Notes under the pieces: model-generated
The model's database searches: none
What the model was told of the DNA's origin: nothing
The model's input: the letters and a program-made list of their open reading frames with translations, nothing else
DNA from: Chitinophagales bacterium
Lineage (GTDB): Bacteria; Bacteroidota; Bacteroidia; Chitinophagales; CAIOSU01
Direction of reading: 5' to 3'
Assembly: GCA_026003335.1 (NCBI GenBank)
Contig: BPHB01000001.1
Span: 952,591-1,016,590, forward strand
DNA length: 64,000 bases
Program-made: the position numbers and the translations under genes
In this document: positions 3,787 to 40,054 of the stretch, piece by piece
How the letters are laid out: the number at the start of each line of letters is the position of its first letter
How positions within the stretch are numbered: position 1 is the stretch's first letter

Positions 3787-4122
3787 TCAGCCAACACTCA
3801 CGTGAAATCCTTTACTGATAAGGTTTTCGGCTACTTTTTTTCTCCAATCACCCTGCAGAATAATTATTCCGTCTTTCACCGACCCCCCTGTTCCGCAGAG
3901 GGTTTTCAGCTGTTTACCTAATTGTTCCAGATCAGACTTTTTACCGACAAACTTCTCCACCAGGGTAACTGTCTTGCCTCCCCGGTCTTTCCGCTCCATT
4001 CTTACCACCAGGTGTTGGCGGGCAGGAGGCAGGGTTTCAGGTTCGTCATTGCCTTCGTACTGGTATACAAAGTCAGGATCAGTGGAATAAACGATTCCGC
4101 TGCGTTTGGGTTTTCTAGTCAT
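3787..4122 (-). CDS. SUI1/eIF1-like translation factor (YciH family)
   Basis: A 111-aa protein whose C-terminal two thirds match the SUI1 fold: a basic strand (KDRGGKTVTLVEKFVG), then LKTLCGTGGSVKDGIIILQGD and a terminal helix-strand (KKVAENLISKGFHV). In eukaryotes and archaea this family controls start-codon selection. The bacterial version (YciH) has been linked to initiation fidelity and stress, but its role is poorly defined. The gene starts 12 nt after the upstream methyltransferase, so the two are probably co-transcribed. The family call is secure; the function is inferred. Confidence 0.9.
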   Translation of the reverse strand: MTRKPKRSGIVYSTDPDFVYQYEGNDEPETLPPARQHLVVRMERKDRGGKTVTLVEKFVGKKSDLEQLGKQLKTLCGTGGSVKDGIIILQGDWRKKVAENLISKGFHVSVG

Positions 4123-4134
4123 GGAAATGGTTTT

Positions 4135-4782
4135 TCATAAATTAGCATTATGCCGGCAGCTTCCGGTATCATTTGTTTTTTGTCCGACAAAGCGCACTAC
4201 AGAGGCTTCTCCCACATGGAAGAGCCCTTCATTGAGCACAATTTCTTCCTCAGCCAGCTTTTGTATCGCATAACCTGAAAAGAGTGTTTTTATCTCTTCA
4301 GCCGAATACAGCATATCCGCATCTTTGGGACCTCCTGCTTTTTCATTTTTCAAGTTGTAGCGTAAATGCTGTTTGCTGAACCCTTCAAAGATTACGGTAC
4401 CGCCTGCCTTCAGCAACGGATGCAGTTGCCCGAAATATGTAGCCTTCAGGGCGGAGGGGAAATGCGCAAAAATCAGTGCAATTGCGTCAAACTGTTTAGG
4501 GGCGTAGGGAAGATCCTCAAAAGTATTGAGGACATAATGGATGGTTACTGCGTGCTTCTCAGCCAGCCGCAGGGCTTTTTTTCGCCCCTCACTACTTTGG
4601 TCAAAGGCAAAAGTTTCCCACCCCAGTTTTGCAGCATACACCGCATTGCGTCCTTCGCCTTCGCAGGGCAATAGAATTACACCTGGCTTTAATTGCTGAA
4701 TCTGCTCTTTGAAAAACGCATTGGGCTGTTCACCGTAAGCGTATGCTTCAGTCGCATATCTCTGATTCCAGAAGTCTATCAT
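4135..4782 (-). CDS. Class I SAM-dependent methyltransferase
   Basis: 215-aa Rossmann-fold methyltransferase. Motif I is LLPCEGEGRNAVYAA around residue 38, followed by the acidic ribose-binding strand FAFDQSSEG and the motif IV-like stretch FDAIALIFAHFP. The N-terminal WNQRYATEAYAYGEQPN pattern is common in TehB/thiopurine-methyltransferase-like small-molecule enzymes. The substrate cannot be read from the sequence. It is first in a minus-strand pair with the SUI1-like gene. Confidence 0.88.
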   Translation of the reverse strand: MIDFWNQRYATEAYAYGEQPNAFFKEQIQQLKPGVILLPCEGEGRNAVYAAKLGWETFAFDQSSEGRKKALRLAEKHAVTIHYVLNTFEDLPYAPKQFDAIALIFAHFPSALKATYFGQLHPLLKAGGTVIFEGFSKQHLRYNLKNEKAGGPKDADMLYSAEEIKTLFSGYAIQKLAEEEIVLNEGLFHVGEASVVRFVGQKTNDTGSCRHNANL

Positions 4783-5528
4783 GGTTTGCTGTTTTTCATT
4801 AAAAACATGCTAGTCTTTTCCAGTGTATAATGAACAGTTCCTGGCATACGGTATATTCTATAGTTTCATTAGTCGTTTTCCACGCAGGGAATAGTTTTAC
4901 TAAAATAATCGGAAACCATCGGCTTGTTGAAGGGTATTCGGGATAAAAATAAATTTTTACGCTACCTGCAAATCCACCCACCGGATTCTGGCAGGCTTCA
5001 TCTGTAGTGTTAAGTACAACGGTTTTCCCGTTGGACAAAATACACTTAATCTCCTACCCCTTAGGCAAACACTCCTTGTAGGAAGTGGACATCAGATGTA
5101 AATGCAAGAAATACTGTCCGTTCATATTCACCAGGGCAAGGTTATATTTTTATGTAAAAAATTTAGCTACCAGTTCCGGTTCGCTGATTCCACGCCTTTC
5201 CCCGGTTTATTGTTTATCTTCATTAATACTTACAGGATACATAAGTAATATAGGAAAACCTTAAAAAGCGGGGTTTAGGAGAAAGAGCATGTCTTTGCTG
5301 ATTTAATACTTTTTCAATTGTACAAAGGCTCATAAACTTAAAAAAGAATCTGTTCTGGCAGGGCTGCCAGGCATGCATAGTGCTTAATCGGGATACGGTC
5401 TTTCTATGCATATCTTGCTTCACCAGGCAGTGCTATATTACCGATCAGAGCAGGTTTTAACCGCAATGCAGATGTCTCCCTCCTCACATAAAAGCTGCGC
5501 TCCGGCCTGAGATCAAGGATAGGAATCC
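4783..5528. other. Gene-poor stretch
   Basis: About 750 nt between the divergent methyltransferase and DUF983 genes. It holds only short minus-strand frames (4799-5038, 5223-5423, 5404-5589). None resembles a known family, has a plausible start context or shows convincing coding composition. The 79-residue frame at 4799-5038 (with NTTDEACQNPVGGFAGSVKIY) reads most like protein and could be a decayed exported-protein gene. I saw no RNA gene, long repeat or clear terminator. Confidence 0.5.
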
Positions 5529-5536
5529 TAATTTTG
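5529..5536 (+). promoter_or_regulatory. TAnnTTTG -7 box for the DUF983 gene
   Basis: TAATTTTG matches the Bacteroidota sigma-70 -7 consensus TAnnTTTG and lies 12 nt upstream of the ATG at 5549, which implies a very short leader. No clear -33 TTTG was seen. Confidence 0.45.
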
Positions 5537-5548
5537 ATGCAGTGAAAA

Positions 5549-5977
5549 ATGCATAAGCTAAGAGCCAAGCTATACAGTATCCTTCTCAACAGATGCCCGC
5601 GATGCCTGCGAGGGAAGTTCTGGCCGGGTAATCCATATTATAACTTGTTATGTAACGGAGGTAAGCTCTATAAATCCTGCCCACATTGCGGAATGTCGTA
5701 TTATCTGGAAATTGGATTCTGGTACGGGGCCATGTATGTTGCCTATGCCCTCAGCATCGGCATTTTCCTCATCGGTTGGGCAGCAACCTCCCTGTTATTG
5801 CCCGAAAGCTGGTCACCCTGGATACAGGTTGGGATAATTTGTGCGTGCATCGTATTTCTTATGCCGGTAACTTATGCCCTTTCCCGTTTAATCTGGATAA
5901 ACCTTTTCGTGCAATATGAACCCGGAAGAAGAGAACTGCATGTCAACCCTCATCCGGAAATGACCAACAGCACGTGA
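5549..5977 (+). CDS. DUF983 family membrane protein
   Basis: 142-aa small membrane protein. Two Cys pairs near the N-terminus (C16-x2-C19 and C44-x2-C47) look like a zinc ribbon. Two hydrophobic helices follow (about residues 60-85 and 92-115). This is the DUF983 pattern. Some alphaproteobacterial members sit with cytochrome oxidase genes, but no function is established. The short charged C-terminus would be cytoplasmic if the ribbon is. It lies 40 nt upstream of the di-haem peroxidase; whether they share a transcript is unclear. Confidence 0.85.
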   Translation: MHKLRAKLYSILLNRCPRCLRGKFWPGNPYYNLLCNGGKLYKSCPHCGMSYYLEIGFWYGAMYVAYALSIGIFLIGWAATSLLLPESWSPWIQVGIICACIVFLMPVTYALSRLIWINLFVQYEPGRRELHVNPHPEMTNST

Positions 5978-6017
5978 AAAATCTTACGCCAAGCTTTTTC
6001 GGATTTATATTTAAACC

Positions 6018-7937
6018 ATGATGAGACTGGTTGCATACTTTGGCGGCATTCTGATTATTACCCTTTATTCTTTTAATACCCTGCACCCAAAGACAGATTA
6101 CATTCATTGCTACGAAGCAACCATCTCGGCCCTTTTGCAAGAGGAGCATGAGCTAGTTGCGTTTCTGCAAACAACAGACAGCCTATCCTCTGAAGAAATA
6201 GCACGTATCGGTAAAAAAATTGCGCAGTGTCGCTTAAAGCTAAAAGCAGCCGATTTCTGGCTACGCTATCTTGACCCACTGGGCTACAAAAAAATTAACG
6301 GCCCACTTCCGGTGGAATGGGAATCGGAAGTATACCGGAAATGGGATAAGCCGACCAGACGGGAAGCAGCAGGCTTTACGCTTGCCGAATTACATCTGAA
6401 TGAAGACCACGTCAGCCGCGACACCCTGTTGAGGCTTATAGGGCAGGCAGCCGAAGCAACCGCCCTGTTTCTTGCAGACTCCATAACCGAACCGCTGCAT
6501 AGTTATCATCATTTTTTCTTTGCCAACCGATTGTTTCTGATGAACCTTGCGGCTATTTACACTACCGGCTTTGAATGCCCTGATCCGGAAAGGGTGATAC
6601 CCGAACTCCGGCAGCTACTGGCTTCCGTCAGTGAGATCTGTAAATGCTTTGACAAAAGCTTTCCGGCACAGGCCCTTCCGCAATCTTATCACCTGCTGTA
6701 TGATACCATGATGATATTTGTACGCAATCAGCCGGATGATTTTACCCGGTTTGATCATTTCACTTTTATCCGCGACTACGTGAATCCTCTGTTTGCCATG
6801 AACCAACAGCTTATCCGGAAGCACGGAGCAGTTTCCCGCAGCATCAATGATTATGTATTAAATAATGAAGCAACATCCATCTTTGATAAATCGCTCTTTA
6901 CTATTCAGTATCCCAAAGGCATCTTCTCACTGGTAGAAGACAGCGCTGTGCTGGAAGAAATGGATCGTGCAGGGAAACTGCTGTTCTATGACCCCATTCT
7001 TTCCGGCAATAACCAGCGCAGCTGTGCCTCCTGCCATAAACCTTTTCAATATTTTACTGACACTACTGTGCGCACCCCTTTGCAGTATGACAGCATAAAC
7101 CGGTTGCCGCGCAATGCCCCATCTCTTGTCAATGTGATTTATAATCATCTGGTGATGCTGGATGGCCGCCACTTCTCTCTGCAGGAACAAGCCCGTGAAG
7201 TGATAACCAATCCTACTGAGCTTGCAGGAACGGAAAAAGAAATCATGGAAAAAATCATGAGCTGCAGGGAATACCGAACTCTATTTAAAAGACTGCTCAG
7301 ATACACCCCCGGGGAAAAAACAGTGAATCTGAAGCATATTGTCTCTGCCATTACTTTCTATTACAGCAAATTCAGCCGCTACTATTCGCCTTTTGACGAG
7401 GCCATGCTTAATAATACTGAAATAGATGCCCGCGTACAAAACGGCTTTAATGTGTTTATGAGCAAAGGTCAATGCGCTACCTGTCATTTTGTGCCATTGT
7501 TTAATGGCGTGAAACCTCCTTTTAACAATTCCGAATTTGAAGTAATCGGAGTACCGGCAGACACTTTCTATTCTAAGGTTAGTCCTGACAGCGGACGCTA
7601 TCAGGCTGTACCGGTTCCGGAAATGTTGCATGCTTTCCGAACAACCACGCTGAGAAACACTCAATTTACCGGACCCTACATGCATAACGGAGTATTTTCC
7701 TCTCTGGAACAGGTAATAGATTTTTATGATGGCGGTGGCGCGTTGGGCCGCAAGCTGCCTCTTCCTCATCAAACCCTTTCTGCCGATTCGCTGCATTTGA
7801 CACCAGAGGAAAAAGAAGATTTAATTTTGTTTATGCATGCATTGACAGAAAAAGTACGCTTTGAAGCCCCTCCGGCTTCCCTGCCAGAATCATCCAATCG
7901 TGCATTAAACACAAGAAAACCGGGAGGACTCTATTAA
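6018..7937 (+). CDS. Di-haem cytochrome c peroxidase (MauG/CCP family)
   Basis: 639 aa. An uncleaved or weak N-terminal membrane/signal segment (LVAYFGGILIITLYSF) is followed by about 300 residues of mostly helical sequence I cannot assign. Then comes the peroxidase core with two CxxCH haem sites (C336-A-S-C339-H340 and C486-A-T-C489-H490). Flanking motifs RNAPSLVN, LDGRHFSLQEQA and the FRTTTLRN..GPYMHNG segment are typical of bacterial CCP/MauG proteins. It probably reduces peroxide or oxidises a partner in the periplasm. It is twice the usual CCP length because of the N-terminal domain. A monohaem cytochrome gene starts 4 nt after its stop and is the obvious electron partner. Confidence 0.92.
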   Translation: MMRLVAYFGGILIITLYSFNTLHPKTDYIHCYEATISALLQEEHELVAFLQTTDSLSSEEIARIGKKIAQCRLKLKAADFWLRYLDPLGYKKINGPLPVEWESEVYRKWDKPTRREAAGFTLAELHLNEDHVSRDTLLRLIGQAAEATALFLADSITEPLHSYHHFFFANRLFLMNLAAIYTTGFECPDPERVIPELRQLLASVSEICKCFDKSFPAQALPQSYHLLYDTMMIFVRNQPDDFTRFDHFTFIRDYVNPLFAMNQQLIRKHGAVSRSINDYVLNNEATSIFDKSLFTIQYPKGIFSLVEDSAVLEEMDRAGKLLFYDPILSGNNQRSCASCHKPFQYFTDTTVRTPLQYDSINRLPRNAPSLVNVIYNHLVMLDGRHFSLQEQAREVITNPTELAGTEKEIMEKIMSCREYRTLFKRLLRYTPGEKTVNLKHIVSAITFYYSKFSRYYSPFDEAMLNNTEIDARVQNGFNVFMSKGQCATCHFVPLFNGVKPPFNNSEFEVIGVPADTFYSKVSPDSGRYQAVPVPEMLHAFRTTTLRNTQFTGPYMHNGVFSSLEQVIDFYDGGGALGRKLPLPHQTLSADSLHLTPEEKEDLILFMHALTEKVRFEAPPASLPESSNRALNTRKPGGLY

Positions 7938-7941
7938 ACTC

Positions 7942-8346
7942 ATGAAGCGAATACAATCTGTTATAGGGATAATCTGCGCCTTGTTGCTCATGCAATGCAG
8001 TCTGCAGCGTACGATGCATACAGATATACGCAACATACTTACCTATACCCCTCAGGGGGTATCAACTCTCAGCGAAGAGCAGATTAAATCCACCTACCTG
8101 CGCGGATATCACCTGTACAAGGCTACTTGCTCATCATGCCATGGATTGTCTTCAACCGGTAAAGACACCATACCCGCATTCACTTTCAACCAGCTTGACA
8201 ACTACAAAACGTCCGCCACCCGAGGCGACCCCGACAACCATGCAGTAACCAAAAAACTCAGCCCCGAACAGCTCAGTGACATTTTAACTTTTCTTTATTT
8301 CAAGACTCTGGCCAGGCATGCCGAAAACATGAAAAAACAGGATTAA
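7942..8346 (+). CDS. Monohaem c-type cytochrome lipoprotein
   Basis: 134 aa. The N-terminus is a lipoprotein signal (MKRIQSVIGIICALLLMQC), so the protein is probably anchored in a membrane on the periplasmic side. One haem-binding motif, CSSCH, is followed by GLSSTGKDTIPAF and a C-terminal helix LSPEQLSDILTFLYF, the normal class I cytochrome c layout. It sits 4 nt downstream of the di-haem peroxidase and is probably its electron donor. Its stop codon directly abuts the next ATG. Confidence 0.88.
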   Translation: MKRIQSVIGIICALLLMQCSLQRTMHTDIRNILTYTPQGVSTLSEEQIKSTYLRGYHLYKATCSSCHGLSSTGKDTIPAFTFNQLDNYKTSATRGDPDNHAVTKKLSPEQLSDILTFLYFKTLARHAENMKKQD

Positions 8347-9405
8347 ATGTTTCGTAAATCATCAGGTATCATGCAGGCTGATTCCGCTTCACCAGACCAT
8401 GAACTCAAAGATGAACTCTACGAGCAACACCGCTTCGTAGCTGACAGGGGTCAGGAGCCCTTGCGCATAGACAAGTTTCTGCTCAACCGGCTGGAAGGCA
8501 TCAGCCGCAACAAAATCCAGAACGCCATACGGGCCGAATCCGTCCTGGTGAACGGTCATCCGGTTAAAAGTAACTACCGCGTTAAACCGCTGGACGTCAT
8601 CACTATTCTGCTGGACAGCCCGCCCCATGAATTGGTCAGCGAGCCAGAAAATATACCGCTGCATATCATATATGAAGATGATCATCTGGTGGTTATCAAC
8701 AAGCAGGCCGGACTTGTAGCCCATCCTGCTCCGGGCAATTACACCGGTACCCTGGTGAATGCCCTGCTCTATCATTTCAACCAGCTTGCCCGTGGAACCA
8801 GCCCGATACGTCCAGGTCTGGTGCATCGCCTGGATAAAGACACAACCGGACTGATGGTCATCGCCAAAGATGAATTCACACTGATGCATCTGGCTAATCA
8901 GTTTTTCAAACGTACCATAAAGCGCAACTACACCGCGCTCGTATGGGGCGACCTGCCGGATGAAGCCGGCACCATCTCCGGGCATATCGGCCGCAACCTC
9001 CGCTACCGCAAAATCATGGATGTGTTCCCCGAAGGAGAACACGGGAAAGAAGCTGTCACGCACTACCGCGTCATTGAGCGTTTCGGCTACGTGACCCTTG
9101 TGGATGTGCAGCTGGAAACAGGGCGCACCCATCAGATACGCGTACACATGGCACATATCGGTCATCCGCTGTTTAATGACGCTACCTATGGAGGAGACCG
9201 CATCGTGAAGGGAACAGTGTATTCCAAATACAAACAATTCGTGCAAAATTGTTTTACTGTGCTTCCCCGTCAGGCTTTGCATGCCCGCACTCTGGGATTC
9301 TACCATCCGGTATTGCAGAAAGAACTGTTCTTTGAAAGCCCGCTCCCCGCAGACTTTGAGGCTTTGCTGGATAAATGGAGAAATTATGTGCGGGTAAAAA
9401 AATAA
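8347..9405 (+). CDS. rluD: RluA/RluD-family 23S rRNA pseudouridine synthase
   Basis: 352 aa. An N-terminal S4 RNA-binding domain (RIDKFLLNRLEGISRNKIQNAI) precedes the catalytic domain. The catalytic aspartate motif is HRLDKDTTGL, and the C-terminal QLETGRTHQIRVHM is diagnostic of the RluA family. RluD modifies helix 69 of 23S rRNA in E. coli; the exact target here is inferred. The first ATG directly abuts the cytochrome stop codon. A second in-frame ATG at 8377 is possible, because the conserved region begins only near residue 30. Confidence 0.93.
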   Translation: MFRKSSGIMQADSASPDHELKDELYEQHRFVADRGQEPLRIDKFLLNRLEGISRNKIQNAIRAESVLVNGHPVKSNYRVKPLDVITILLDSPPHELVSEPENIPLHIIYEDDHLVVINKQAGLVAHPAPGNYTGTLVNALLYHFNQLARGTSPIRPGLVHRLDKDTTGLMVIAKDEFTLMHLANQFFKRTIKRNYTALVWGDLPDEAGTISGHIGRNLRYRKIMDVFPEGEHGKEAVTHYRVIERFGYVTLVDVQLETGRTHQIRVHMAHIGHPLFNDATYGGDRIVKGTVYSKYKQFVQNCFTVLPRQALHARTLGFYHPVLQKELFFESPLPADFEALLDKWRNYVRVKK

Positions 9406-30320: not shown

Positions 30321-30620
30321 ATGAGCAAAATAACATTCGGGGATTACATCAGGAAACGAAGAAAAGAAAAGGAACTTCCATTACGGAAGGTTGCTGCCCA
30401 TCTCGACATTGACACTTCAACATTAAGTAAAGTGGAAAGAGGTGAACGACCAGCTTCACCGGACTATCTAAGACCATTGGCAGAGATACTTGAACTGGAC
30501 TTAAAAGAAGTTCAAACAAATTTCATTGCTGACAAAATCAACAAAGACTTTGGAGGTTTGGAACATTTAAGCGAAGGACTGAAAGAGGCAGAAAAACAGA
30601 TAAAAAACAAAAAGAGATAA
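30321..30620 (+). CDS. XRE-family transcriptional regulator (controller-like)
   Basis: 99 aa. A helix-turn-helix domain fills the first 65 residues: FGDYIRKRRKEKELPLRKVAAHLDI, then DTSTLSKVERGERPASPDYLRPLAEIL. The C-terminal 30 residues are charged and helical (LSEGLKEAEKQIKNKKR), perhaps for dimerisation. Its stop overlaps the helicase ATG by one base (TAATG). Two palindromes cover its promoter, so autoregulation like that of restriction-modification controller proteins is likely; that is inference from position. Confidence 0.9.
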   Translation: MSKITFGDYIRKRRKEKELPLRKVAAHLDIDTSTLSKVERGERPASPDYLRPLAEILELDLKEVQTNFIADKINKDFGGLEHLSEGLKEAEKQIKNKKR

Positions 30621-33600
30621 TGTCATCTAAATTTTTTACAAATAACAGCGAACGAAGCATGTTCGAGAAATTCAAAGGAATTATCGAACACATGAAAGAC
30701 TTATATGCTTTTCATGCGGTTGTTGGTTACTTCCGTTCTTCGGGTTACTTCGCTTTACAACCATACCTTAAAGACTTAAAAGAAATCAAAATATTAGTCG
30801 GCATCAATGTTGACCAAATGTTTGCCAAATCGCAACGCAAAGGACTTTTATATTTCGGAGACGAAGAAAAAACAAAAGAGGAATTTTTGAAATGGTTTAT
30901 TCAAGACATCAAAGAAGCCAAATATTCTGAAGAAGTTGAAAAAGGTATTTTACAATTCGTGAACGACTTGATTGACGGACGAATTGAAGTAAGGGCACAC
31001 AACTCAAAAGCCATTCATGCCAAGTTCTATTTGTTTTTACCCGAACATCACAGCGAGCATTCAGATGGTTGGGTTATCATGGGTTCATCTAACCTTACAG
31101 AAGCAGGACTTGGAATCAAAAAATCACCGAACTATGAATTGAATATCGCTTTGAAGGACTTTGACGATGTTCAGTTTACCAAAAAGGAGTTTGTTGAATT
31201 ATGGGAACATTCAACCCCGATTCTACCTGCCGACATTCAAGCTTTCAAACAAAAAACACATATCGGGCAGACTTTCACGCCTTATGAACTTTACATCAAA
31301 TTTTTAATTGAATACTTCGGTAAAAACATAGACTACGACCCGGACACGGTTGGAGATTTACCGAAGACTTATAAAAAACTTTCTTATCAGATTGATGCCG
31401 TAAACCAAGGCTTTCAAATGCTGATGGAACACAATGGCTTTTTCCTTTCTGACGTGGTAGGTTTAGGTAAAACCGTTGTTGCAGCTATGATTGCCAAGCG
31501 GTTTTTAATTGCCAATGGCTCATTGAACACTAAAATATTGGTGGTGTTTCCGCCTGCATTGGAAAAGAACTGGAAAAACACATTCAGGCTTTTCGGTATT
31601 GACCGACACACCAAATTTATTACCAACGGACGATTGGATAAAATTGTAAATGGTGATGATTTGAACTATTGGGCAAAAGAGGATTATGATTTGGTTTTGG
31701 TTGACGAAGCACACCGATACAGAAACCACACTTCGCAATCATTCGGATTGCTCCAACGAATTTGCAAAGCACCAAGAAATGGCGAAGGCTTAGTACCGGG
31801 AAAAAAGAAAAAAGTCATTCTTATTTCTGCTACACCGCTTAACAACCGGCCGCAAGATTTATATTATCAGTTGCTTTTGTTTCAAGATGCAAGACGAAGC
31901 ACCTTACCCGTAACCAACTTGCAAAGTTTCTTTGGGCCAATCATTCGTGAGTTCAGAGAAATTATGCAACAAGACCAACCGAACATTGAACGCATCAGAG
32001 AACTTTATTCAACCATTCGTGAAAAAATCATTTCTCAAATAACAGTTCGCAGAACAAGACGAGATTTAATGAACTATCCTAAATACATTGAGGATTTAAA
32101 AGCACAAGGTATTGTGTTCCCCGAAATTGCACCTCCCAAGCCAAAGATTTATGAGTTTGATGCCAAGTTGAGCAAATTGTTTTATCATACCATTTTCTAC
32201 CTGACAGACGATGATAAAATTCAATATTACCGCTATCAGGCTATCAAATATTTGAAACCTGAATTAAGAGAAAACTATTACGAACAAGCGATTTTAGTTT
32301 CTCAATCGTTGGCAGGTATCATGAAAACTTTAATGGTAAAAAGGTTAGAAAGCAGCTTCACCGCTTTTAAATCATCATTAAAGAATCTTACTACTGCCAC
32401 AGGCAGAATGATTGAAATGTTTAACAAGGGCAAAGTTTTAATTGCTCCCGACTTGCGTGTGAACGACCTGATGGAAAAGGGTTTCAGCATTGAAGATTTG
32501 GAAGTGATGATTCTTGAAATGAGTGCTGAAAATCCGAGAAACTATGTTTTCAGTCCTGATGATTTTGATAGTGGTTTTATTGATGGCTTGCGTAAAGACC
32601 ATTTGCTTTTGCAAGAATTGGTAAAAGAATGGAGCAAAGTGGAACAAGACCCAAAACTGGATACATTCTTAAAAACACTTAAAGACGAATTGCTTAATCC
32701 AGAAATCAACCCAACAGGCAAGTTGGTAGTATTTACGGAAAGCACCGATACAGCAAATTACCTGACCGAAAAAGTTGAAGCCTTCCTTAAAACTAAAGTT
32801 TTGAATGTTTCGAGCGACAATCGAAGCAAGATTTTTGAAACCATTCAGGAAAATTTTGATGCTAACTACATTGGAGAGAAAAAGAACGATTACAACATCA
32901 TTATTACAACCGATGTATTGGCAGAAGGGGTGAATCTGCACCGTGCGAATGTTATTGTAAACTATGACACGCCTTGGAATGCAACCCGACTGATGCAACG
33001 CATTGGACGTGTAAACCGAATTGGAAGCGTAGCGGGTGTTATTTACAACTACAACTTCTACCCATCTCAACAAGGCGATGAAGAAATTAAACTATACAAA
33101 AATGCCTTAATTAAACTGCAAGGTTTTCATACTGCTTTCGGTGAAGACGCAAAAATTTATACACACGAAGAAATGTTAGAGCAGTTTAAATTATTCAACG
33201 AAGGTTTGCCGGATGAGGAAGACAAGCGACTGCATTACTTGCGTTACATCCGTGAGTTTAAAGACAACAATCCGAAAGAATTTAAACGCATCAAAGCATT
33301 TCCGTTAAAGGCAAGAACAGCAAGAAATAATAAGTATGCTCAAAAAGCAGACACACACGGTTCAACAGTAGTGTTTCTGAAATCGCCTTATAAAATGGAA
33401 TTTTATCAAATTACCGAAAAAAACAAAGTAAATCCATTGACCTTTTTAGAAGCGGCACAAATTTTTGAAGCACAATCAACAGAACCATCTTTTGCATTGC
33501 CTGAAAATCATTACGACCATGTTCAGGCAGCCTTGAAAGCATTTGAAGAAGACTTTTTAGGTGGAACAACTGAAAAAGTTACAGCCACCGACAAAGCCGA

Positions 33601-33919
33601 TGCAAACACCAAACAGGCTTTAAAGTTTCTGCGTGACTTTAAAGCCATTACACACCAGGCCATTGTAAAAGAAATCTGCCAAACCTTGCAACCCATTGTT
33701 GAAAGCGGCACTTACACGCCTTTGGCAAATGAGTTGAAAAAGCTAAGTCAGAAGTTTTTCAGCAAACGAGAAATTACCACTTCGCAAGTGGACAGTTTAT
33801 TGATTGCCTTGGCAAAGAAATACGATGCTTTTACCAGTGACGAAGAAGAAACCAAACTGGAAGAAATTGACACCAACATTGCACCTGAAATTGTGCTATC
33901 AGAAACTTTTATTGAATAA
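30620..33919 (+). CDS. PLD-nuclease / SF2 (SNF2-like) helicase fusion protein
   Basis: 1099 aa. The first about 200 residues are a phospholipase D-type nuclease domain with the HxK motif at H133-A-K135 (AIHAKFYLF) and GSSNLTEAG from 155. A helicase core follows: Walker A DVVGLGKT (278-285), DEAH box at 362-365, LISATPLNN, and the C-terminal RecA lobe with LVVFTESTDTA near 700, ITTDVLAEGVNLH near 762 and arginine-finger motif QRIGRVNRIG near 793. About 300 further residues are unassigned. ATP-driven PLD restriction is known from CglI and NgoAVII, where the two activities are on separate proteins. It overlaps both neighbours by one base. Confidence 0.9.
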   Translation: MSSKFFTNNSERSMFEKFKGIIEHMKDLYAFHAVVGYFRSSGYFALQPYLKDLKEIKILVGINVDQMFAKSQRKGLLYFGDEEKTKEEFLKWFIQDIKEAKYSEEVEKGILQFVNDLIDGRIEVRAHNSKAIHAKFYLFLPEHHSEHSDGWVIMGSSNLTEAGLGIKKSPNYELNIALKDFDDVQFTKKEFVELWEHSTPILPADIQAFKQKTHIGQTFTPYELYIKFLIEYFGKNIDYDPDTVGDLPKTYKKLSYQIDAVNQGFQMLMEHNGFFLSDVVGLGKTVVAAMIAKRFLIANGSLNTKILVVFPPALEKNWKNTFRLFGIDRHTKFITNGRLDKIVNGDDLNYWAKEDYDLVLVDEAHRYRNHTSQSFGLLQRICKAPRNGEGLVPGKKKKVILISATPLNNRPQDLYYQLLLFQDARRSTLPVTNLQSFFGPIIREFREIMQQDQPNIERIRELYSTIREKIISQITVRRTRRDLMNYPKYIEDLKAQGIVFPEIAPPKPKIYEFDAKLSKLFYHTIFYLTDDDKIQYYRYQAIKYLKPELRENYYEQAILVSQSLAGIMKTLMVKRLESSFTAFKSSLKNLTTATGRMIEMFNKGKVLIAPDLRVNDLMEKGFSIEDLEVMILEMSAENPRNYVFSPDDFDSGFIDGLRKDHLLLQELVKEWSKVEQDPKLDTFLKTLKDELLNPEINPTGKLVVFTESTDTANYLTEKVEAFLKTKVLNVSSDNRSKIFETIQENFDANYIGEKKNDYNIIITTDVLAEGVNLHRANVIVNYDTPWNATRLMQRIGRVNRIGSVAGVIYNYNFYPSQQGDEEIKLYKNALIKLQGFHTAFGEDAKIYTHEEMLEQFKLFNEGLPDEEDKRLHYLRYIREFKDNNPKEFKRIKAFPLKARTARNNKYAQKADTHGSTVVFLKSPYKMEFYQITEKNKVNPLTFLEAAQIFEAQSTEPSFALPENHYDHVQAALKAFEEDFLGGTTEKVTATDKADANTKQALKFLRDFKAITHQAIVKEICQTLQPIVESGTYTPLANELKKLSQKFFSKREITTSQVDSLLIALAKKYDAFTSDEEETKLEEIDTNIAPEIVLSETFIE

Positions 33920-36900
33920 TGGACAAAAAAACATTACAAAATAGCATACTCGAAAAAGCATATCAACCTGAAAAATGGTTGGATGTGATGAAAGAATATT
34001 TTGGCGCAAAGAAATTTCACCAAAAACCTCAACCTGTTTCATTACCAAGCAATGAAATTGCTCATAGTGCCGTTGAGTTGGGTAGTTTTTACACCGCTGA
34101 TGAACGCATTGTTGGCATTTATGAGGTGAAACTAACCGATAAAGCACTGATAGAACGCAACCGTGTTGGACTAAGAAACCTTTTTAAATCTATTATCCGT
34201 TATGACCTTGATGCTGCTTTAATTGTTTACATACAAGCAAAGAAATGGCGTTTCAGTTATGTGAGTGAAATTAGAACGGCAGAAGGGAAAAAAGAAACCG
34301 AGCCGAAACGCTACACTTATCTTTTTGGCGAAGGGGAGAGTTGCCGTACAGCAGCCGAACGTTTTGACAAACTAAAAGGAAAGCCGATTTATCTCAATGA
34401 TTTATTTGAAGCCTTTAGCGTTGAAAAACTAAACAAGGACTTCTTTAAAACCTATAAAGAGTTTTACGAAAAGTTTTGGAAATACCTTGCAGCACATAAA
34501 CATTACAGCAAGCTATTAAGCGATAAACGCTACAAAGACGATGAAGTAAAACGAGAAAAGCCCATTCGTGATTTTACAAAAAAATTATTAGGTAGAATTG
34601 TTTTCCTTCAATTTTTGCAGAAAAAAGGTTGGATGGGCGTTCCCGCCAAAAACACTGATTGGAAAGGGGGCGACATTAAATTTCTTCAAACTCTGTTCGC
34701 CAATAGCAAAAACAAATCTGTTTTCCATAGTAAGGAATTAAGAACCTTATTTTTTGAAACACTGAACCAAAAACGTACAAACAACATTGCAACTGCCTTG
34801 CTCGGAAAGGATATTAAAATCCCTTACCTCAATGGGGGTTTGTTTGAAAAAGACATTTCCTATTCAAATGACATTGATTTTCCGGAAGATTATTTTGCCA
34901 ATTTGCTCGACTTTTTTGAGCAATACAACTTTACCATTGACGAAAACGACCCCTATGACAGCGAAGTAGGTATTGACCCTGAAATGTTAGGGCACATTTT
35001 TGAAAACCTGCTGGAAGAAAACAGAGAGAAAGGCGCCTTCTATACTCCGAAAGAAATTGTGCATTACATGTGTCAGGAAAGTTTAATTGAATACCTGCAC
35101 ACTCAATTGCCCAACTACAATAAAGCCGATTTTGAACTGCTGGTAAGAAATAATCAGGTTTCTGGTGCATTTGCAGATTACAAAACAGCCAATGAAATAA
35201 ACAACAAACTAAAGGCGGTAAAAATTTGCGACCCCGCCATTGGTTCGGGCGCTTTTCCTATGGGTTTACTCAAAGAAATTTTTGAGTGCCGCAGGGTATT
35301 GTATGGCTACTTAAAAACCAACGAAAAATTCGACCCTGCACAAATAAAAAAAGACATCATTCAACAAAACATTTATGGGGTTGATATAGAAAACGGTGCT
35401 GTAGAAATTGCCCGTTTGCGTTTTTGGTTGGCATTGGTGGTAGATGAAACCGAACCACAACCCTTGCCAAATTTAGATTACAAAATTATGCAAGGCAATA
35501 GTTTGTTGGAATGCTTTGAAACGGTGGATTTGCAAAACCTAATCAATGCCGATGATGATGTGATGGTGGAAGAAAAAAAGCAACTCACATTTGGCCATGA
35601 ATTTGAAGCTCCTAACAGGGAGTTGACTGTTTTCTCCAAAGCAAACAAAGAAGAACTATTTACACTCATTAAGAAATACTTTGACCCCGATGAGTGGGAA
35701 AAACAAACCAGTGAAGTAGTTGACAAAGCGGTGGTAAAGCGTCAAATCAATGATTTTGTTGAAGGAAAAATCCACGCCTCTATTCTAAAATGCCAAAGAG
35801 ATTTAAGTAAGAAAATTAACGCTGCTGAAAAGAAATGGGAGGCTGCAGGCAAAACCGACCATAGTAAATTCAACCAAAAATCGAAAGAGTATAAACAATA
35901 CTTAGAATGGAAAAAGCAGTTAGAAGAACTGGATGCCGTTGAAGAAAAATTAGTTGCTCTACAAAAAACAGATGATAAACCCTATTTCTTATGGCATTTG
36001 TGGTTTAAAGATGTATTTGACAAAGGAGGCTTTGACATTGTAATCGGTAACCCGCCTTATATCCAACTCCAAAAAGAGGGCGGCAAATTAGCCCAGGAAT
36101 TACAAAACCAACATTACCAAACTTTTGAACGCACGGGCGACATCTACACCCTTTTTTACGAAAAAGGCATACAACTGCTTAAACCGGGCGGACATCTTAC
36201 CTACATAACTTCCAATAAATGGATGCGGGCAGGCTATGGCGAAAAAACCCGTGCCTTTTTTGCAACATACAACCCTATTAAATTGATTGACTTAGGCGGT
36301 GGTATTTTTGAAAGTGCTACCGTTGATACCAACATTTTAATCATTCAAAAAGCCCCCAACCAAAACCATTGCCAAGCCGCTGACCTATCCAAAACCCAAC
36401 AAACAGACTTTGAAAACCTGACTTGGTACACCCTTAAAAATTTGGGCAAAGAAGCATGGACGATTGCTTCCGATATAGAGCAACGCATTAAAGCCAAAAT
36501 AGAAGCCAAAGGAAAACCCCTCAAAGAATGGGATATACAAATTAACTATGGCATAAAAACAGGTTACAACGAAGCCTTCATTATAGATGGCAAAAAGAAA
36601 GACGAACTCATTGCCCAAGACCCCCGCAGTGCCGAAATCATCAAACCCATTTTGCGAGGCAGAGACATTAAACGCTACAAAGCCGATTTTGCCGATTTGT
36701 GGCTGATTGCTACTTTTCCTGCACTCAAACTCAATATTGATGACTATCCTGCCGTAAGAGATTATTTAAAAAGTTTTGGTAAAAAATTACACCAAACAGG
36801 CGAAGAATACATTGATGAAAATGGCGTAAAACAAAAAACCCGAAAAAAAACGGGAAATAAATGGTTTGAAACCCAAGACCAAATTGCCTATTACCAAGAA

Positions 36901-37353
36901 TTTGAAAAAGAAAAGATTGTTTATCCTAATATGACTTTGTTTCTGCCTTTTATATTTGACGATAAAGGATATTACACTAATCAGAAATGCTTTATAATTA
37001 CATCAGAAAAGATAAACTTAAAATTTTTAGTTGCATATTTTAATTCTAAAGTATCTCATCGTTGGATACGTCAAAATTGCCCTGAATTACAAGGGGGAAC
37101 TAGAGAATTAAGTAAGATATTTTTTGAAAATATACCCATTCCACCTCTTTCCGAACCCGAACAACAGCCCTTTGTGGCGTTGGTAGAGCAGATTTTGTCA
37201 AAAAAGGAAAAAGGCGAAGACACCACAGATTTAGAGCAACAAATAGACTTATTAGTTTATCGCCTTTACGAGTTAAGTTACGAGGAAGTGAAAGTCATAG
37301 ACCCTGAATTTGCATTGAGCAAAAAGGCGTATGAAGCTATTAAGTTAGAATAA
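33919..37353 (+). CDS. Eco57I-type adenine-specific DNA methyltransferase with N-terminal nuclease-like motif
   Basis: 1144 aa. Residues 52-71 contain D61..E69-V-K71 (ERIVGIYEVKL), a PD-(D/E)XK-like arrangement. GAFYTPKEIVHYM near 371 and the SAM-binding DPAIGSGAFPMG near 440 precede the catalytic NPPY at 711-714 (IVIGNPPYIQL), which marks an N6-adenine enzyme. The last 300 residues (from about GIKTGYNEAFI, with LRGRDIKRY and PPLSEPEQQPFVALV) form the target-recognition and C-terminal helical region. The whole resembles type IIG enzymes. It is coupled to the helicase gene by TAATG. A truncated second 3' end lies at 39145-39300. Confidence 0.9.
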   Translation: MDKKTLQNSILEKAYQPEKWLDVMKEYFGAKKFHQKPQPVSLPSNEIAHSAVELGSFYTADERIVGIYEVKLTDKALIERNRVGLRNLFKSIIRYDLDAALIVYIQAKKWRFSYVSEIRTAEGKKETEPKRYTYLFGEGESCRTAAERFDKLKGKPIYLNDLFEAFSVEKLNKDFFKTYKEFYEKFWKYLAAHKHYSKLLSDKRYKDDEVKREKPIRDFTKKLLGRIVFLQFLQKKGWMGVPAKNTDWKGGDIKFLQTLFANSKNKSVFHSKELRTLFFETLNQKRTNNIATALLGKDIKIPYLNGGLFEKDISYSNDIDFPEDYFANLLDFFEQYNFTIDENDPYDSEVGIDPEMLGHIFENLLEENREKGAFYTPKEIVHYMCQESLIEYLHTQLPNYNKADFELLVRNNQVSGAFADYKTANEINNKLKAVKICDPAIGSGAFPMGLLKEIFECRRVLYGYLKTNEKFDPAQIKKDIIQQNIYGVDIENGAVEIARLRFWLALVVDETEPQPLPNLDYKIMQGNSLLECFETVDLQNLINADDDVMVEEKKQLTFGHEFEAPNRELTVFSKANKEELFTLIKKYFDPDEWEKQTSEVVDKAVVKRQINDFVEGKIHASILKCQRDLSKKINAAEKKWEAAGKTDHSKFNQKSKEYKQYLEWKKQLEELDAVEEKLVALQKTDDKPYFLWHLWFKDVFDKGGFDIVIGNPPYIQLQKEGGKLAQELQNQHYQTFERTGDIYTLFYEKGIQLLKPGGHLTYITSNKWMRAGYGEKTRAFFATYNPIKLIDLGGGIFESATVDTNILIIQKAPNQNHCQAADLSKTQQTDFENLTWYTLKNLGKEAWTIASDIEQRIKAKIEAKGKPLKEWDIQINYGIKTGYNEAFIIDGKKKDELIAQDPRSAEIIKPILRGRDIKRYKADFADLWLIATFPALKLNIDDYPAVRDYLKSFGKKLHQTGEEYIDENGVKQKTRKKTGNKWFETQDQIAYYQEFEKEKIVYPNMTLFLPFIFDDKGYYTNQKCFIITSEKINLKFLVAYFNSKVSHRWIRQNCPELQGGTRELSKIFFENIPIPPLSEPEQQPFVALVEQILSKKEKGEDTTDLEQQIDLLVYRLYELSYEEVKVIDPEFALSKKAYEAIKLE

Positions 37354-37401
37354 AAATTTCTGTACTCTCTAAAATGGAACATCTAAAAATGATAATAGTA
37401 T

Positions 37402-38304
37402 ATGGCAAAAAAAGAAAACTGGGGTGGTTCTTGGACAGAGGAAAAACTAGAGGCTTTTGAAAAGTATGTAGAAGCATATTTAACCATAATGCATTCTACA
37501 AGAGAAAAATATAATGGATGGCCAAAAGAAATTATTTATTTTGATGGATTTGCTGGCAGTGGTTCAAGAATGGAAAACGATAATGATCAGATGTCAATGC
37601 AGAGTATTTTCAAAGATTTAGATATTCAAAAAGAAGAGGCGGAAGTGTATCAAGGTAGTAGTGAAAGAGTATTGTCATTAACTAAAAAGTTTGATAAATA
37701 CTATTTTGTAGATTTGGATAATAGCGCATTACATAACTTAAAACAAAAATTGTTGGAAAAAAACTTGATAAACCGAAGTTGTTTTTTTCTAACAGGTGAT
37801 GTAAATGAGGTTATTTGTGAATTTCTAAGTCAATGGAATAAAGATAAAGTGGCATTAGTGCTTTTGGACCCTTATGGCATGCAAGTAAAATGGAGTACCA
37901 TACAAAAAATGAAAGACAAAAGAATTGATTTATGGATTTTGGTACCATCTGGGGTTATCATCAATAGGTTAATAGATAGAAATGGAAATCTTAAAAACAT
38001 TGAAAAACTTCAAGAATATCTGGGAATGAGTAAAGAAGAGATAATGCAGAAGTTTTATCAAAAAAAAGCCTCACAAAGCTTATTCGGAGAAATAGAAATT
38101 ACTGAAAAGAAAAAGAATACTATTCACGTTATTGCTGAAACATATGTAGAAAAATTAAAGAAAATTTTTAAATATGTAACTGAAAAACCGCTTGAATTAA
38201 AAAACTCAAAAAAAGTGATAATCTATCATTTTATATTTGCTTCCAATAACAAGAGTGCTAAGAAAATTGCCGGTCAGATAATTGAATTGAAAATAAAAAA
38301 ATAA
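37402..38304 (+). CDS. tcmP: Three-Cys-motif partner protein TcmP
   Basis: 300 aa. The N-terminus ([20 protein letters not shown]) and [15 protein letters not shown] are characteristic of TcmP. The order [34 protein letters not shown] and [13 protein letters not shown] follows a class I methyltransferase fold, with DPYG where DNA methyltransferases have NPPY. The biochemical function is unknown; the family is defined by its pairing with a three-Cys-motif protein, encoded 5 nt downstream. It is the most A+T-rich gene of the island and starts 48 nt after the methyltransferase gene. Confidence 0.88.
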
Positions 38305-38309
38305 AAAAA

Positions 38310-39041
38310 ATGAATAATACAAAAATAGAATGGACTGAAATGACTTGGAACCCGACAACGGGCTGCGACAAGATTTCAGCGGGATGTAAGTTCTGCTATG
38401 CAGAAGTTATGGCAAAGCGTTTGCAAGCAATGGGCGTTGAGAAATACAAGAACGGTTTTGAAGTAACCATTCACGAAGATGAGTTACATGCTCCATATAA
38501 CTGGAAAAAACCCAAAGTTATTTTTGTAAACTCTATGAGCGACCTTTTTCACAAAGACGTTCCGATTGGCTTTATTAGGAAGGTCTTTAAAGTAATGAAA
38601 GATAATCCACAACACGTTTTTCAAGTATTGACAAAGAGAGCGGACATTCTAAGATATTATGACAGTGAAGGCTGGTTGGAATGGACACACAATATTTGGA
38701 TGGGCGTTTCAGTAGAGAATAATAAAGTAACCAAAAGAATTGACTTGCTTCGTGAGACAGGTGCAAGAGTTAAATTCCTTTCTTGCGAACCTTTAATTGG
38801 TCCAATTCCGAATATGAACTTAACAGGAATAGATTGGGTAATTGTAGGTGGTGAAAGCGGAAGAAAGCCAAGACCTATGAAAGAAGAATGGGTTACGGAT
38901 ATAAAAAATCAGTGTTTAAAAGCAGGCGTTGCCTTCTTTTTCAAACAGTGGGGTGGAACTAATAAAAAGAAAACTGGACGACTTCTAGAAGGCAAAACCT
39001 GGGACGAAATGCCCGAAATAGAACTACACAAAAGTATATAG
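38310..39041 (+). CDS. Three-Cys-motif protein (DUF5131, phage Gp37/Gp68 family)
   Basis: 243 aa. The motif C19-x6-C26-x2-C29 ([19 protein letters not shown]) gives the family its name and probably binds an iron-sulfur cluster as in radical SAM proteins. Further conserved parts are [39 protein letters not shown] and [12 protein letters not shown]. The fold looks like a TIM-barrel radical SAM relative. Its substrate is unknown. It is the partner of TcmP immediately upstream and is found in phages and mobile elements. Confidence 0.9.
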
Positions 39042-39144
39042 ATAAAAACAACCCACTAACACGAGTTTTCTTTCTGCACTACCTATCGGTCGCTTCAGGC
39101 GGGGTGACGTGAGAACACCGGTCAAGTTACTTTCCTCATCCGTG

Positions 39145-39300
39145 CAACAGCCCTTTGTAGCGTTGGTAGAGCAGATTTTGTCAAAAAAGGAAAAAGACGA
39201 AGACACCACGGCATTGGAGCGGGAAATAGACTTGCTGGTTTACCAGCTGTATGAATTAACGGAGGAGGAGATAAACATCATTGAAAATGCGATAGAATGA
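39145..39300 (+). pseudogene. Truncated second copy of the methyltransferase 3' end
   Basis: Encodes QQPFVALVEQILSKKEK.. through LTEEEINIIENAIE and a stop. The first 65 nt match 37162-37226 of the methyltransferase gene at 63 positions, then the copies diverge. No start codon or upstream methyltransferase sequence is present, so this is a fragment of a different allele. It lies directly behind the Tcm gene. Confidence 0.8.
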
Positions 39301-39352
39301 GTAAGGAGCAGAAAATGAATATCTGCAAATCGGTTTTCAATCGCCTGTATCG

Positions 39353-40054
39353 TCATGACCATCCTGTACGGGTAAATTTAAAAGGCATGAAATCCATACC
39401 GGAAATACGGATGATTGCAGGCTTAAACAACCCCGCATAATGCGCCAAATAGCAGTCACACACATACCACAGCCCCGCAAAGCAATTGCACCAACCAAAA
39501 CTGTGGTAAGCGTTTGCCGCCTCTCTGCCTGAAATCCCTCCGCCTCCTTCATAAATATAATCACCCAGAAAGATGACTGCCTGAATATCATTTCTCTCAG
39601 CTATATGACGATAGGCGTTGTAGTAATCTCCATTACCATAACGCGCACAGGACGCCACTGCTACCCGTATTCTGAAGTTGTTGCCTGCAGGCAAGGTTTT
39701 GGTACGGCCTATTAGGGACTTTCTTCCATCATGTGCAAACTGATAGTAATACCAGGTATCAGGCTGCAATCCACCCACATCAACTTTTACTGTATAGTCA
39801 ACTGAAGCATCCGTAGTGGCCGTTCCCTGATTTACGATCTGTGTCATGGATGTATCCGTAGCTATTTGCCAGCGCACGGTAAAGGACGATGAATCAGAGC
39901 GGGAAATACGTGTCCAGATGATAACCTTATCGCTGAGTGCATCACCGGAGGCAACCCCGTGAATAAAAGGCACCATGCGCGGATCGGGAATCTGTGCATA
40001 CAGCATGGCCGAACAAGTCAGAGACAATACTGCGCATAAAGTATATTGCTTCAT
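39353..40054 (-). pseudogene. PhoD-like secreted phosphatase, 5' half only
   Basis: A signal peptide (MKQYTLCAVLSLTCSAMLYAQ) and the PhoD N-terminal beta domain are intact: FIHGVASGDALSDKVIIWTRIS, WYYYQFAHDGRKS, then the first metal-binding strand FLGDYIYEGGG. From about residue 172 (near 39540) the frame becomes unlike PhoD and runs into sequence shared with the other island edge before a chance stop at 39353. The metallophosphoesterase core (WDDHE and later ligands) is gone. PhoD proteins are normally 450 residues or more. Probably inactivated by the island insertion. Confidence 0.8.
39421..39495 (-). repeat. Right-edge copy of the island boundary element
   Basis: Read on the minus strand, TTTGGCGCATTATGCGGGGT (39430-39449) matches TTTGGCGTAATGCGGGGT at the left edge apart from a 2-nt insertion and one change. 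Both are followed by TTTAA- or CTTAA-type sequence. TTGCACCAAC at 39486-39495 corresponds to the GTTGCACAAC end of the left copy. The two copies face each other across the island. Confidence 0.45.

Follow-up and report, generated by a model that had tools for sequence, protein, structure and literature searches.

How a second, partial methyltransferase 3' end came to lie beyond two accessory genes, downstream of a complete methyltransferase gene, is the question raised by a restriction operon in a 64,000-nucleotide stretch of Chitinophagales bacterium DNA (hereafter the window). The operon lies on the plus strand and begins with an HTH regulator gene (30321-30620; HTH_31/HTH_3, PADLOC HTH_VI, control protein), followed by the genes of an HKD/PLD-SNF2 helicase (30620-33919; C3a139 HKD+Snf2 at 5e-48, with Helicase_C, SNF2-rel_dom and PLDc_2) and of a type IIG restriction enzyme-methyltransferase (33919-37353; PDLC03596 at 5e-197, PF07669 and PF12950, Eco57I domain). 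The type IIG assignment is predicted from domains, as an Eco57I-type methyltransferase and a TaqI-like specificity domain are found in one long polypeptide. Next come the genes of a TcmP-like protein (37402-38304; PADLOC candidate PDC-M41A at 7e-98), whose name is taken from a plasmid annotation, and of a DUF5131 protein of the phage Gp37/Gp68 family (38310-39041; PF07505 at 2e-101, PDC-M30B/M41B), and then a spacer (39042-39128; GC 0.48, host flanks 0.456-0.457). The 63-aa orphan frame that follows (39109-39300) matches the REase_MTase_IIG model PDLC03612 at 3.6e-13. On the minus strand, a PhoD-like phosphatase gene, of which the 5' part is present (39353-40054), is truncated at the right border of the operon.

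The segment 39145-39300 corresponds to the last ~52 codons of a type IIG methyltransferase gene, of which it is a displaced copy. In an ungapped comparison, its first 65 bases (39145-39209, block copy 2) match 37162-37226 (block copy 1, which encodes residues 1082-1103 of the intact enzyme) at 63 positions, the runner-up match to copy 1 within the window reaching 32/65 on the plus strand and the best on the minus strand also 32/65. Upstream of 39145 the similarity fades within ~15 nt (10/15), leaving a weak onset of homology to the methyltransferase 3' end at 39129-39144. Beyond the block, the intact gene continues into tail A (37227-37353, beginning LSYEEVKVIDPEF; the same tail type is found at L248, in a related genome) and terminates in LSYEEVKVIDPEFALSKKAYEAIKLE, whereas the orphan frame continues into tail B (39210-39300, LEREIDLLVYQLYELTEEEINIIENAIE) and terminates in LTEEEINIIENAIE, with its stop at 39300. 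The near-identity followed by divergence into a different C-terminus, as given in a preliminary description of this DNA, is thus borne out. Weaker similarity runs past the block to 39284 because tails A and B are distant homologues, and the whole alignment covers 155 nt at 79%. The orphan tail sits 1,983 bp past the tail of the intact gene, with the TcmP and DUF5131 genes between, and a genome-wide search with its DNA returned two matches in the genome of the window, both of them these copies.

The preliminary description had proposed that specificity is exchanged by shuffling such 3' ends. This is not supported, because the block and tail come after the specificity domain: TaqI_C occupies residues 909-1074, and the block begins at residue 1082. 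In a structure predicted for residues 690-1144 from 35 sequences (mean pLDDT 87.5), a helix spans most of the block (model residues 390-408) and the tail is modelled as three helices, which places block and tail outside the recognised specificity domain. The best solved-structure matches of this model are CamA and M.BseCI, then BpuSI and M.TaqI.

The block is also not the conserved family element that had been supposed, as only 3 of 119 loci matched it (E<=0.01), all of them cut from this place (L001-L003). The methyltransferase of genome G269 (L248), the nearest relative found, has 65% protein identity to that of the window over residues 690-1144, the C-terminal half, and shares 40 of 65 bases with the intact gene when the compared segment is shifted by two bases; in the same shifted segment the orphan tail matches the intact gene at 61/65. 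The block was therefore shared recently between the two places in the window. One other genome, G230, matches most of the block, at 74%, among 296 genomes of the order searched, the window's own included. The block was also tested as a foreign patch inside the methyltransferase gene, with a result that was not significant: it is no outlier within the gene in either GC or identity to G269. For the same reason, the block may have been copied in either direction. No close donor for 38960-39353 was found among the 296 genomes of the order, and the 51-aa tail has no match in plasmid or phage collections at E<=1e-5; with the DNA of 37062-39353, eight plasmids matched at 60-80% identity, within the DUF5131 part. 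Positions 39042-39146 match none of the 119 loci save L001, itself cut from this place.

We favour, with somewhat more confidence than an even chance would give, the insertion of a cassette between two tails by recombination in the tail-coding segment, with displacement of an older tail B. Such recombination would put the TcmP and DUF5131 genes between the tail of the gene and a second tail, the intact gene then ending in tail A and tail B being left as an orphan past the cassette, and the near-identical 65-nt blocks would be the site at which joining or copying of the tails took place. Recombination between these direct-repeat blocks would excise the cassette, after which the methyltransferase frame would stay open and run into tail B; an in-silico join at the block yields 1,132 residues, and its one stop is that of tail B.

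The main rival, which we regard as rather improbable, is allele replacement, in which a newly arrived operon (helicase, methyltransferase with tail A, TcmP and DUF5131) would have overwritten a resident methyltransferase gene and left tail B behind, the blocks agreeing because the alleles shared that stretch. It would fit the attachment of tail A in the nearest relative, G269, and also the base composition, the GC of the spacer (0.48) and tail B (0.42) being nearer to that of the host flanks (0.456) than to that of the methyltransferase body (0.374) or TcmP (0.291). However, the G269 relative lacks TcmP. Its one tail is of type A and contiguous with the gene, which counts against the cassette reading in that tail A need not have arrived with the cassette; the relatives drawn belong to genera other than that of the window. 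At two other loci, L208 and L155, the orphans are 89% and 81% copies of the neighbouring gene's own tail, which suggests copying there rather than leftovers.

The cassette insertion reading gains from the recurrence of the layout. Shared blocks could be scored in 30 of 35 neighbouring same-strand tail pairs and range from 43 nt (97.7%, L082) to 481 nt (80.9%, L155); the other five pairs (L074, L077, L079, L162 and L221) have no scored block, which counts against this reading. More than half of the same-locus tail pairs (29/49, those within arrays not being independent) exceed in similarity 99% of the 3,000 between-locus pairs sampled, some of which join close relatives. The pair at L153, also a point against, is unremarkable, 0.16 of unrelated pairs reaching its similarity. 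At L082 and L085 the tails diverge after the block, as do tails A and B in the window. The borders of the block vary from locus to locus, which disfavours a fixed attachment core; neither such a core nor, among the window proteins scanned between the tails, the integrase of site-specific integration at a gene 3' end was found. Because the borders differ, the enzymes were probably those of general homologous or microhomology recombination.

The tail types lie scattered across a tree of methyltransferase bodies. On this tree, which has 90 bodies, the distribution of tail type A (8 rows) requires 7 changes, of which well-supported branches force 6, compared with a mean of 7.7 when the tail labels are shuffled (123 of 500 shuffles being as low as the observed 7); the labels were set by our own patterns, the tree is a quick one with some long branches, and some viral-contig rows are included in both the tail alignment and the tree. 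On these sequences, tail type appears to have no clear link to the methyltransferase body. By the same author-set patterns, type B tails occur on 80 of the 90 bodies, and intact genes with the type of end seen at 39300, which the preliminary description had proposed to look for, do exist. Its counter-example, the same two 3' ends in tandem without Tcm/TcmP, was encountered in part: tandem tails without cargo are present at L157, L158 and L212, although not with these two ends. The repeat, the order of the parts, the recurrence elsewhere and the scatter of tail types on the body tree all agree with its description of the segment as a scar of recombination, and recombination at the tail is well supported.

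What lies between the tails differs among loci. At L208, DarT (PADLOC, 5e-58) and DarG (2e-117) are located between the methyltransferase tail and the orphan tail, which are on the same strand here and at the loci that follow; at L085, a ParE-like toxin (1e-4, at the curated cut-off) together with a short ORF; at L153, an AAA_13 protein (3e-139; PrrC model at 2e-12); at L154, DUF3800 (4e-12); and at L210, an Abi_alpha-like protein (weak, below the curated cut-off). L155 has LRR-Roc-COR-EAD11 and Mrr_cat proteins between its tails and a similar LRR gene also beyond the orphan, from which it follows that a larger duplication was involved there. Y1_Tnp (Pfam) is found between the tails at L065 and L162, look-alikes of IS200-like transposases, judged from sequence, at L058 and L209, and a DUF5615 gene between two orphan tails at L082. 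The methyltransferases of L036 and L154 end in a third tail type, with no shared block seen, which again speaks against the cassette reading. L036 (909-5865, G000:C2) is a second type IIG locus of the window's own genome, with a DUF559 domain, where an orphan tail follows two Pfam-less ORFs.

An array is present in Alkalitalea saponilacus (L058), where the gene tail is followed by an orphan, a transposase look-alike, an orphan, AAA_14/DUF4143, an orphan, an outer-membrane barrel with a thioredoxin-like protein, and another orphan. The cargo is thus not only defence genes. Integron cassette arrays are genes strung between copies of one short repeat, and L058 and L104 resemble them in that genes are strung between repeat copies; unlike in integrons, no integrase is seen between the tails, a methyltransferase coding end serves as the repeat, and the block borders vary. 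In the window, likewise, the scanned proteins between the tails include no integrase. At L058 (8020-14380), hairpin-like REP sequences flank orphan tails on one or both sides, and one orphan-tail pair brackets the IS200-like transposase look-alike, which may contribute to the spread of the tails. The idea of the tail as a genome-wide repeat there was rejected, with 7 matches of which 5 are at one locus.

To see how common orphan tails are, a tail model built from 18 sequences was used, which matched in 63 of 298 genomes of the order and 106 of 396 genomes of the class, surveys that overlap in four genomes (G000, G026, G051 and G072). In the order, short frames (<=125 aa) account for 27 of 105 tail matches; in the class they make up 41 of the 150 matches listed. 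Ten viral contigs encode tail relatives. A model of the internal NPPY motif, which also picks up other methyltransferases, was run on 298 genomes from the order and gave, among the matches listed, 0 of 150 in frames of <=125 aa (Fisher 4e-12 against the tail short frames in the order). These counts bear on plain decay, in which the second of two tandem methyltransferase genes would have been deleted down to its 3' end. Decay should leave internal fragments, and because these are missing among the matches listed it is weakened; nor does it explain the near-identical blocks, and we judge it unlikely.

The neighbourhoods of short tails were compared in the window and 42 regions, which cover part of the short-frame rows and contain 48 short tails, 45 clear of contig edges and 3 at edges. 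Downstream of a same-strand methyltransferase, within 8 kb, lie 15 of the 45 (13 loci), one of which (L150) is probably a frameshift, and one tail lies upstream of it. The other 29 have no same-strand methyltransferase in the stretch examined, counting L157, whose fragment lacks the NPPY motif; L072 and L216, which seem to come from a single genome, are not independent. This proportion is in line with plain decay and weakens the claim that every orphan marks a cassette, and many orphan tails may be leftovers of lost genes. Decay is also compatible with internal deletions joining an N-terminal piece to the tail, at L077 and L214. Against it, 16 of the 29 lone tails show <=60 residues of methyltransferase homology above the tail model, and several of the remaining ones have another tail within 900 nt, which inflates their homology figure.

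A silent tail kept for reversible switching of the C-terminus would draw on the open frame obtained by joining at the block, and inverted methyltransferase 3' halves do exist elsewhere, one of them beside a resolvase (L035). In the window, however, the copy points the same way as the gene, the scanned operon proteins include no recombinase, and switching by deletion would be one-way; we consider this reading very improbable. At L035 itself (3834-8475), which is likely an invertible specificity switch, a methyltransferase ORF (3834-6950) runs into a second 3' half in inverted orientation (6934-7662); the locus also has a 36-nt inverted repeat (86%) and an adjoining resolvase gene (7870-8475). 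Head-on tail pairs are also present among the class matches listed (G400:C71 and G612:C2).

Of 298 genomes of the order, among them that of the window, 16 have TcmP relatives. At L187, L190 and L191, the TcmP-DUF5131 pair is flanked by hsdS-like and hsdR-like genes, and at L195 it neighbours a probable type III system, these names being read from ORFs. A tail match is absent from all 12 other TcmP regions examined, which counts against the cassette reading. The pair thus occurs in several types of restriction operon, and the tail accompanies type IIG genes rather than the pair. From this gene context, TcmP-DUF5131 is probably accessory to the restriction system, the pairs inside apparent type I and III operons are candidate restriction accessories, and the cassette may have a role in defence.

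The nearest precedents in the sources consulted are insertion with long target duplication and the HpyAII system, which has 80-bp repeats. The former was reported in Helicobacter pylori by Nobusato et al. 2000 (as cited in PMC1643837, PMC7494987, PMC4978471 and PMC3031569); as those papers summarise it, DNA tied to restriction-modification genes is bounded by long direct repeats of target DNA. The window is similar in having long direct repeats around an insert, 65 nt at 63/65 around TcmP-DUF5131, with 43 to 481 nt at other loci. In H. pylori, by the same accounts, the restriction genes are the insert, whereas here and at several loci the methyltransferase 3' end is the repeated part and accessory, toxin-antitoxin or transposase genes lie between. 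The copies are also not alike over a whole repeat, as the tails past the block can differ, and tails A and B do. For HpyAII, flanked by an 80-bp repeat, both deletion and restoration are reported (Aras et al. 2001, cited in PMC7494987), and in that summary direct repeats of similar length permit both by recombination. HpyAII loses and regains a whole restriction system; here only the adjoining cassette would go. PrrC in a type IC locus is an accessory defence gene embedded in a restriction operon (PMC12707154), comparable in this respect to the window, while the part of that source available describes no repeated gene end for PrrC. The available part of a BREX survey (PMC12839542) holds nothing bearing on the tail question, and no description of methyltransferase tails flanking defence cassettes was found among titles and abstract openings in the open-access literature.

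Defence genes cluster in islands, and how a new gene joins a restriction operon without breaking it is seldom visible. The recurring layout suggests that the end of the type IIG gene is a spot where accessory genes are recombined in. More tentatively, and on balance rather improbably, the type IIG coding tail might be a recurrent docking repeat: defence, toxin-antitoxin and transposase cassettes, each with its own tail copy, would enter resident genes by recombination, a working C-terminus being kept and the old tails accumulating downstream in an integron-like array that has no integrase. A repeated gene end that keeps the methyltransferase open during gain and loss of cargo would be one concrete route by which such operons acquire genes, and orphan tails serve as a search handle that flags candidate accessory defence genes.
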